From an uncultured Alcaligenaceae bacterium (GTDB lineage: Bacteria; Pseudomonadota; Gammaproteobacteria; Burkholderiales; Burkholderiaceae_B): 54,646 nt of DNA. The DNA is taken from positions 1-54,646 of the forward strand of contig CALBMZ010000091.1 of NCBI GenBank assembly GCA_937896225.1, in the 5' to 3' direction. Made by a program: the position numbers and the translations under genes. The notes under the pieces were generated by a model. That model did not search any database and was not told where the DNA came from. It was given only the letters and a program-made list of their open reading frames with translations. This document shows, in pieces, positions 40,347 to 45,422 of the stretch (position 1 is the first letter of the stretch; the number at the start of each line of letters is the position of its first letter).

Positions 40347-40355
40347 AGTAATTTA

Positions 40356-40387
40356 AAAGCCCCTGAATAATTGTTCAGGGGCTTTTT
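40356..40387 (+). terminator. Rho-independent terminator after tRNA-Lys
   Basis: AAAGCCCCTGAA (40356-40367) pairs perfectly with TTCAGGGGCTTT (40374-40385) around a 6-base loop, and the 3' arm runs into TTTTT. It starts 10 bases after the tRNA CCA. On the other strand an A/T-rich flank could also end transcription of the convergent methyltransferase gene. Confidence 0.9.
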
Positions 40388-43728: not shown

Positions 43729-43787
43729 CCCGCTATGTTTTTTATTCAACTCAATGTTTGTATCGTAAAAAATTTTAGTGATGGTCC

Positions 43788-43816
43788 TTGCATATAGTTC
43801 GTATACGTACTAAAAT
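43788..43816 (+). promoter_or_regulatory. Probable marR promoter inside the inverted repeat
   Basis: TTGCAT at 43788-43793 and TAAAAT at 43811-43816 are separated by 17 bases, fitting a sigma-70 promoter with a strong -10 and moderate -35. The -10 box fills the spacer of the large inverted repeat, so a protein bound to the repeat would block polymerase. Confidence 0.55.
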
Positions 43817-43836
43817 TGTACGTATACGAACTATAT
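43792..43836. promoter_or_regulatory. Perfect 19+19 bp inverted repeat, probable MarR operator
   Basis: The arm ATATAGTTCGTATACGTAC (43792-43810) is repeated exactly in reverse complement at 43818-43836 across a 7-base spacer. Each arm also contains the short palindrome CGTATACG, so the site could bind one dimer per arm. It lies 15 bases upstream of the marR start and encloses the likely -10 box. MarR proteins usually bind such palindromes in their own promoter, so autorepression is the natural reading. Confidence 0.8.
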
Positions 43837-43850
43837 TAAAGAGATGTCAC

Positions 43851-44264
43851 ATGACATTTAAATTGTTGATGAAAGAGCTGGTCTCAACGTATCAAGCTTT
43901 TGAGCATTACTCAAATACCCACATTAAAGAAAAGGGGTTGACGATGACTCAATTTGATATTTTGGTAACACTGGGCAATCAACCTCCAATGACCTGCAAA
44001 GAACTCGGTGAAAAAACGCTAGTCTCGAAGGGAACGTTAACGGGTGTACTAGAACGCTTACAAGGTAAGGGTTTGATTGAAAAGTTTACGAACGAAGAAG
44101 ATGGGCGCAGTTATCAAATCGGTCTATCAGAGGCTGGAAATGTTTTATTTCAAACCATATTCCCAGAGCACATGCTGTATTTAGAAAGAGCATTCGGAAA
44201 ATTAAGCCAAAAAGATATCAATCAAACAGTCAGTGCATTACAGGTAGTGAAAGAAATTTTTTAA
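43851..44264 (+). CDS. MarR family transcriptional regulator
   Basis: A 137-residue winged-helix regulator. The recognition region is MTCKELGEKTLVSKGTLTGVLERLQGKGLIEK (about residues 48-79), followed by the wing EEDGRSYQIGLSEAG with the conserved DGR. The ATG at 43851 is chosen because codons upstream of it lie inside the inverted repeat and its promoter. With azoR next in line, it is likely to sense a quinone, azo dye or other electrophile and control the pair. The protein as read from this ATG shows no cysteine in its first half except C50, which could serve in redox sensing (inference). Confidence 0.9.
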   Translation: MTFKLLMKELVSTYQAFEHYSNTHIKEKGLTMTQFDILVTLGNQPPMTCKELGEKTLVSKGTLTGVLERLQGKGLIEKFTNEEDGRSYQIGLSEAGNVLFQTIFPEHMLYLERAFGKLSQKDINQTVSALQVVKEIF

Positions 44265-44355
44265 AGTGACGTAAAAAACAACCATCGTATGCTGAAGAGC
44301 GCACGGTTGTCAGAACCTAAGCAACGATACCTATTTATTTTTAAGAGAAAAAACG

Positions 44356-44958
44356 ATGAGCAAAATTCTACATATTAAATCAAGCATTTTTACGGCTGGT
44401 GGGTACTCGGGTCAATTGACAGACAAGTTCGTTAAAAATTTAGTTAAAAAAAATGCAAATGCTGATGTTGTCGTTAGAGATTTCGCAAAAGACGGCGTGC
44501 CCCATTTAGATGAAGCACGATTCATGTCTTTTTTAACGCAACCTGAAGCTCGAACTGAAGAACAGGATAAAGTTGTCGCTTATTCAGATGCGCTGATTAA
44601 AGAGCTTAAAGAGGCTGATGTGATTGTGTTGGGCTTGCCCATGTACAACTTAGGCATACCTTCAAACCTTAAGGCATATTTTGATCATATTGGCCGTGCT
44701 GGCGAGACCTTTCAATATACCGAGACCGGCCCAGTGGGTTTGGTGACTGGCAAAAAAGTATATGTGGTTGCCACACGTGGTGGCAATTACCAAGGCACGC
44801 CTTATGACACCCAAACGGGTTACATCAACGTATTTTTAGGTTTTCTGGGCATCACAGATGTAGAGTTTGTGTACGCTGAAGGTTTGAATATGGGCGAAGA
44901 AGCCAAGGCTACCGCTCTTGAGGCAGGCATCACTCAGTTAGAAAAAATAGCTTCATAA
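44356..44958 (+). CDS. azoR: FMN-dependent NADH-azoreductase AzoR
   Basis: A 200-residue flavodoxin-fold reductase that uses NADH and FMN to reduce azo compounds and quinones. The FMN phosphate site is near residues 8-20 (IKSSIFTAGGYSG), the PMYNLGIPSNLKAYFDHI motif near 94-111 and ATRGGNYQG near 138-146. It lies 91 bases downstream of marR, same strand, and is probably the main target of that regulator. Confidence 0.93.
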   Translation: MSKILHIKSSIFTAGGYSGQLTDKFVKNLVKKNANADVVVRDFAKDGVPHLDEARFMSFLTQPEARTEEQDKVVAYSDALIKELKEADVIVLGLPMYNLGIPSNLKAYFDHIGRAGETFQYTETGPVGLVTGKKVYVVATRGGNYQGTPYDTQTGYINVFLGFLGITDVEFVYAEGLNMGEEAKATALEAGITQLEKIAS

Positions 44959-44972
44959 ACTTGTTTGTTATT

Positions 44973-45008
44973 ACTCGCTTAGCCAACTAACTATCTGGCT
45001 AAGCGAGT
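44973..45008. terminator. Stem-loop between azoR and the VOC gene
   Basis: ACTCGCTTAGCCA (44973-44985) pairs perfectly with TGGCTAAGCGAGT (44996-45008) around a 10-base loop. It lies between two convergent genes, 15 bases after azoR. A strong stem but no T-run, so it is probably a bidirectional or imperfect terminator. Confidence 0.55.
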
Positions 45009-45041: not shown

Positions 45042-45422
45042 CTATTTTGCAGGCCTATGCATGGCACAAATTTTATTACCCGCTGGGTCTCTAAGCCAAG
45101 CTATGTAAATCGTGCCGGCTACACCATCGCGATAACCTGGGTCACCTTCGCAAGAGTGCCCGCCGTGCGCCACGCCAATCGCGTGAAAGGCATCGACATC
45201 ATCTTTTGACTTTGCAACAAAACCAATGGTGCCACCGTTGGCGTGAGTGGCCTCTTTGCCATCAATAGGTTTTGTAATAGCAAAAACACCGCCCGCACCC
45301 CGATAAAAATATCGACTATGACTAAAGCTTCCCGGTTTTACCCCTAGCGTTCCTAAGGCGGCATCATAAAAATCTCTTGAAGCTTCTAAATCGTTTGCAC
45401 CCAGCATAATGTGGCTAAACAT
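45042..45422 (-). CDS. VOC family protein (glyoxalase/dioxygenase-like)
   Basis: A 126-residue protein with two beta-alpha-beta-beta-beta units. It starts with MFSHIMLGANDLEASRDFYDAAL and ends WLRDPAGNKICAMHRP. H4 and the FHAIGVAHGG region are candidate metal ligands. Many such proteins are annotated as glyoxalase-like without proof, and the substrate is unknown. Confidence 0.85.
   Translation of the reverse strand: MFSHIMLGANDLEASRDFYDAALGTLGVKPGSFSHSRYFYRGAGGVFAITKPIDGKEATHANGGTIGFVAKSKDDVDAFHAIGVAHGGHSCEGDPGYRDGVAGTIYIAWLRDPAGNKICAMHRPAK

Follow-up and report, generated by a model that had tools for sequence, protein, structure and literature searches.

What is a perfect 19+19 bp inverted repeat doing around the predicted -10 box of a marR-azoR gene pair? 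The question arises from a contig of an uncultured Alcaligenaceae bacterium, of which 54,646 nucleotides were analysed (this whole stretch is referred to as the window). The original prediction saw in the repeat a MarR site at which two dimers would bind cooperatively and shut off the promoter. On the strength of sequence comparisons, we consider it highly likely that the repeat serves the adjacent MarR as a tandem operator, set within the repressor's own promoter and controlling marR-azoR.

Anatomy of the repeat and its promoter

The repeat, located by an inverted-repeat search, extends from 43792 to 43836 and holds both of the operators described below. Its arms (43792-43810 and 43818-43836) pair without a mismatch over 19 bp, exactly as predicted, and are separated by a 7-nt spacer, TAAAATT (43811-43817). 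With spacers of up to 20 nt these are the longest perfect arms in the window, the runners-up having arms of 13 bp, and 40 first-order Markov versions of the window had longest arms of 9 to 12 bp. When two mismatches are allowed, the repeat reaches 24 bp per arm (43787-43841). The spacer had been equated with the -10 hexamer TAAAAT; the hexamer does lie inside the spacer, the last base of which falls outside it. The palindrome claimed for each arm was also found, CGTATACG being present at 43800-43807 and 43821-43828.

When the upstream regions of marR homologues were compared, the conserved unit proved to be an 18-bp pseudo-palindrome, TAGTNC-N6-GNACTA; HosA of E. coli, which may have a similar palindrome, is a possible lead. 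The window contains two copies of the unit, each centred on one of the CGTATACG cores. Operator 1, TAGTTCGTATACGTACTA (43795-43812), agrees with the consensus at 10 of 10 positions, and operator 2, TTGTACGTATACGAACTA (43816-43833), at 9 of 10, its single deviation being TTG instead of TAG. By sequence this is a pseudo-palindrome of the MarR type (16-20 bp) at the regulator's own promoter, present as two 18-bp sites which are kept in relatives. The centres of the two operators are 21 bp, or two helical turns, apart. The layout is that of a two-dimer tandem operator, with sites at helical spacing over the promoter and the -10 element between them.

The putative promoter, on the plus strand, consists of a -35 element, TTGCAT (43788-43793), situated 17 bp from the -10 element TAAAAT (43811-43816), both read from the sequence. 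The -10 hexamer begins with the TA that ends operator 1, continues through the 3-bp gap and closes with the initial T of operator 2, and transcription is expected to start beneath operator 2. Since TTGCAT agrees with TTGACA at only three of six positions, which is below the limit of the generic promoter scan, this promoter was missing from the output of the scan. Between 43600 and 45200 the scan returned five promoter-like sites where 3.2 ± 2.1 were expected. All five are on the minus strand, and the one at 43857-43830 shares positions with the repeat.

Within its own genome the operator pair was found at this locus only. The general single-site pattern was matched at eight other places at one mismatch, and the reversed single-site pattern was about 12 times commoner (127 vs 10). 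A wider regulon was sought with a pattern built on the CGTATACG core and was rejected: both of the other matches lie inside long open frames, which, from reading their translations, we take to encode a MATE-type transporter and a copper-oxidase-like protein.

Conservation of the sites near related marR genes

Two homologue searches provided 97 loci (L005-L101), of which 80, the window included, were kept at a tblastn E-value of 1e-15 or lower; the 17 weaker loci (L018-L034) were left out, as were L001 and L002, which duplicate the window. In 55 of the 80 loci the 150 bp ahead of marR contained one site or more, a site being counted from 8 of 10 positions upwards; among 1600 shuffles the proportion was 5.5%. 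A pair of sites spaced 20-22 bp apart was found at 36 loci and in none of the 1600 shuffles; the spacing was exactly 21 bp in 35 of them and 20 bp in L012, which does not belong to the 35-locus set used for counts of promoter geometry, gene content, dyad symmetry and distinct pairs. The 80 loci are mutually related, and L006/L038 and L007/L047 each look like one organism seen twice; 27 different operator pairs occur among the 35 loci with 21-bp spacing, and adding the ten loci of the genome search described below gives 35 among 45 loci. Within the 35-locus set, TTG was present at the -35 position in 31 loci and TAnnnT at the -10 position in 34. The proposal of two MarR dimers on two sites enclosing the -10 box is strongly supported at the level of sequence, the same motif, 21-bp spacing and -35/-10 placement recurring near related marR genes. 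The comparison establishes the site motif, its fixed spacing, its placement on the promoter and its link to this MarR clade.

The long dyad fared differently. At least 15 consecutive pairs were found at only 4 of the 35 paired loci, one of them the window, and the median was 13 of 19 positions paired with G-U allowed. In the same-genus relative L006 both operators are kept and the long symmetry is absent. Of the claim that the perfect 19+19 repeat is itself the MarR site, the two conserved operators therefore stand; the long perfect dyad, confined to those four loci, does not. The same count bears on whether the repeat works as an RNA hairpin, be it a terminator, an attenuator or a stem in the 5' leader. 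As RNA the window sequence would form a perfect 19-bp stem of -33.4 kcal/mol (z -10.5). No T-run follows this stem, however, and with the expected start inside the repeat the transcript would contain only part of it; moreover, the long stem is limited to 4 of the 35 paired loci while the 18-bp operators persist. We rejected the hairpin or terminator for its rarity among the paired loci and its missing T-run, and regard an RNA function as extremely unlikely.

The whole 45-bp dyad might instead be recognised as a unit, by one MarR dimer or a higher oligomer, so that the mirror symmetry itself matters. The symmetry is perfect in the window and near-perfect in L052, L055 and L061, and the complementarity between operators was 0.748 within loci as against 0.705 when operators were dealt among loci, a difference reached in 1 of 2000 deals (oriented, with the kinship of the loci ignored) and in 15 of 2000 in a partly unoriented version of the test. 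The operators may therefore preserve a degree of mirror symmetry over and above the motif they share. Yet L006 and most other paired loci have two sites without the long symmetry and single 18-bp sites stand alone in other relatives, which makes recognition of the dyad as one unit improbable.

An operator pair upstream of marR was lacking at 44 of the 80 loci. Many of the relatives possess one site only, which means that regulation in general does not require two. These single-site relatives lend some credit to a further alternative, in which each site is bound on its own, without cooperativity, and the second merely raises occupancy. The 21-bp spacing in 35 of the 36 paired loci suggests a constraint and speaks against it; since the -10 box is built from both site ends, its overlap with them could alone fix this spacing. 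We regard independent binding as the less favoured but still serious option, and cooperative binding of two MarR dimers as plausible.

No site within 150 bp upstream of marR was found at 25 loci, namely L011, L017 and 23 loci of the Undibacterium type. In the latter, cytochrome b561 and YceI genes mostly precede marR, and the region immediately ahead of marR contains no site. All 23 nevertheless possess a single site, located 1.80-2.14 kb upstream of marR, that matches at all 10 positions (at 9 in L084), and at all 19 loci with a called leading cytochrome b561 ORF a site is within 200 bp of the start of this ORF. Sites of at least 9/10 upstream of marR were present in 23 of 23 real sequences of the Undibacterium type and in 16 of 460 Markov versions; there is one such site at each locus and not two at 21 bp. 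Use of the sites by some regulator other than the adjacent MarR is very unlikely, since in different genera the motif accompanies this MarR clade, and does so even at the remote operon front of the Undibacterium-type loci.

A separate observation concerns the gap between yceI and marR in these loci (L079-L101), where in 16 of the 23 the best inverted repeat is a hairpin approximately 20-65 bp upstream of marR. The sequences of its arms vary widely from locus to locus and their complementarity is kept. In this it differs from a protein operator and resembles an RNA stem of the intergenic region, which may act as a partial terminator.

The paired 39-bp pattern was also run, with up to two mismatches, on 399 genomes sampled from the order. 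Eleven genomes were matched, our own included, and at all 11 loci a marR homologue (44-100% identity) was present in the fetched locus. In the ten matches outside the window the pair begins upstream of marR, 51-68 bp from its inferred start. The reversed-pattern control matched 10 of the 399 genomes; because this control differs from the pattern in composition, we place the weight on adjacency to marR and not on the number of genomes.

The marR and azoR genes, their partners and a proposed mechanism

The marR gene (43851-44264, plus strand) encodes a 137 amino acid winged-helix repressor of the MarR family (Pfam MarR, E-value 6.5e-18; PF01047, 64.8 bits against a cut-off of 24.6). Its ATG at 43851 is backed by alignment to relatives, and the structure model displays the MarR fold with a mean pLDDT of 87. 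The residues K60, G61, T62, T64, G65, R69 and R86 of the recognition helix and wing are identical in all 80 homologues, which would fit a single operator common to them all. F35 is retained in 78 of the 80 and H107 in 56, the other 24 having V or I at this position. The only cysteine, Cys49, found at the start of helix 3 in the model and kept in 73 of 80 homologues, is a possible thiol switch.

The azoR-type gene (44356-44958, plus strand) specifies a 200 amino acid protein which, judged by sequence family matches, is probably an FMN-dependent NADH azoreductase/quinone reductase. It matched azoreductases in the PDB with E-values down to 9.2e-49 (4ese) and Pfam Flavodoxin_2 at 7.1e-49; among the NCBIfam azoreductase models its best score was 122.6 bits, under the curated cut-off of 188. 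Ahead of azoR, no operator-like site (at least 8 of 10 positions) was present in 44231-44390. The 91-bp gap between marR and azoR had no promoter-like site on the plus strand, with one match on the minus strand only, and as RNA it has no unusual fold (z 0.28).

Two further inverted repeats were observed in the window. A perfect 13+13 bp repeat at 44973-45008, directly past azoR, may serve as a terminator for both azoR and the glyoxalase-type gene opposite (45042-45422). Another perfect 13+13 bp repeat, at 40355-40386, lies between two convergent genes, ends in a short T-run and is probably an intrinsic terminator.

The marR-azoR setting assumed in the original prediction exists in the window; among the 35 paired loci AzoR was present in five, counting the window and the similar L006 and L038, and other partners were commoner. 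The same-strand run after marR included a flavodoxin-fold protein in 19 loci, DoxX in 17, pirin in 16, YceI in 9 and cytochrome b561 in 6. Names were assigned by Pfam on one representative per sequence cluster, and for AzoR by the window's own gene; WrbA-like, as we presume the flavodoxin-fold partner to be, is our own label. Across the relatives the products of neighbouring genes include flavin reductases, DoxX, pirin, nitroreductase, an old-yellow-enzyme-type oxidoreductase, cytochrome b561 and YceI. AzoR counts as one redox or detoxification partner among several, and the operator motif ties the MarR clade to genes of these two kinds.

In L006 and L038 a gene clustering with the window's glyoxalase-type gene is located approximately 300-690 bp upstream of marR. 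In the window this gene is downstream of azoR on the opposite strand, and the difference in position is a local rearrangement of a shared gene set.

For the tandem operator we propose the following mechanism. Each 18-bp site would take one MarR dimer and, at a spacing of 21 bp or two helical turns, the dimers would come to lie side by side on one face of the DNA. Together they would cover the spacer between the -35 and -10 elements, the -10 element itself and the expected start, making repressor and RNA polymerase mutually exclusive. MarR very probably represses its own marR-azoR transcript, an arrangement that would combine negative autoregulation of marR with co-regulation of azoR on one transcript. 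An inducer that binds MarR would release the repressor, and the flavin reductase would then be produced.

Comparison with known systems

Among the papers listed by literature searches, judged by titles and the beginnings of abstracts, none dealt with this MarR clade. The comparison below draws on four articles (PMC12893000, PMC6798810, PMC4737184 and PMC3617543). In a word search of the text on OsbR of Chromobacterium (PMC8567585), the terms YceI, cytochrome b561, inverted repeat, palindrom, motif and pirin were absent.

The best sequence match of MarR in the PDB is MhqR of S. aureus (9qdr, E-value 4.3e-12), with 24% identity over the aligned model. MhqR is described as a quinone-sensing repressor with the pocket residues F11, F39, E43 and H111 (PMC12893000). 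The alignment is ungapped from residue 16 to 124, and the structural pairing matches model residues 1-137 with 5-141 of the entry, so that residue i of our protein is i+4 in MhqR. F39 and H111 thereby correspond to F35 and H107, and E43 and F11 to V39 and M7, the M7-F11 correspondence being taken from the structural range alone. Since MhqR is the best match, F35 and H107 correspond and the neighbouring genes are of the redox type, a quinone-type inducer is a reasonable suggestion; the inducer is likely a quinone or another redox-active aromatic compound. Pocket sensing and thiol sensing are both possible for this MarR.

As far as the sources describe it, MhqR of S. aureus and B. subtilis resembles the present system in being a MarR-type repressor with an 18-bp (9-9 bp) inverted-repeat operator, which in MhqR overlaps the start site, and its regulon in B. 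subtilis includes azoR2, as an azoR-type gene occurs here. The two differ in the operator, which for MhqR reads TATCTCGAA-ATCGAAATA and here follows the motif TAGTNC-N6-GNACTA. In addition, one operator is described for mhqRED whereas two sites are present here, and our MarR has the near-invariant Cys49 and lacks counterparts of E43 and F11.

In fold, the top structural match of the model was HpaR of Acinetobacter baumannii with DNA (7el3; Z 16.9, rmsd 3.1, 134 aligned, 24% identity), by its PDB name a homoprotocatechuate degradation regulator. Several other MarR proteins tie within one Z unit and no single MarR subfamily stands out.

Two-dimer arrangements are known from other repressors. According to review literature, MepR of S. 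aureus, a MarR-family member with 16% identity to our protein, may bind at mepA as two dimers over the -35 and -10 elements; unlike here, its target is drug efflux and its own mepR promoter is believed to be bound by a single dimer. QacR, also according to review literature, places two dimers on one long inverted repeat, IR1, and does so cooperatively, but it is an unrelated protein of the TetR family and IR1 is downstream of the promoter, over the start.

The tandem operator could represent a wider class, that is, a mostly betaproteobacterial, quinone- or electrophile-responsive MarR clade with a fused 18-3-18 operator-promoter in which the operator ends spell the -10 box and the spacing is locked by helix phase and promoter function together, while Cys49 could add thiol sensing; we offer this tentatively, rating it somewhat below an even chance. 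A predicted operator is now available for this MarR clade of the Betaproteobacteria, for example in Polynucleobacter and Undibacterium. The self-controlled detoxification switch proposed here is neat, conserved and ordinary in kind, two-dimer arrangements being already in print for MepR and QacR, and its 18-3-18 layout provides a compact case of operators and a -10 box sharing bases.
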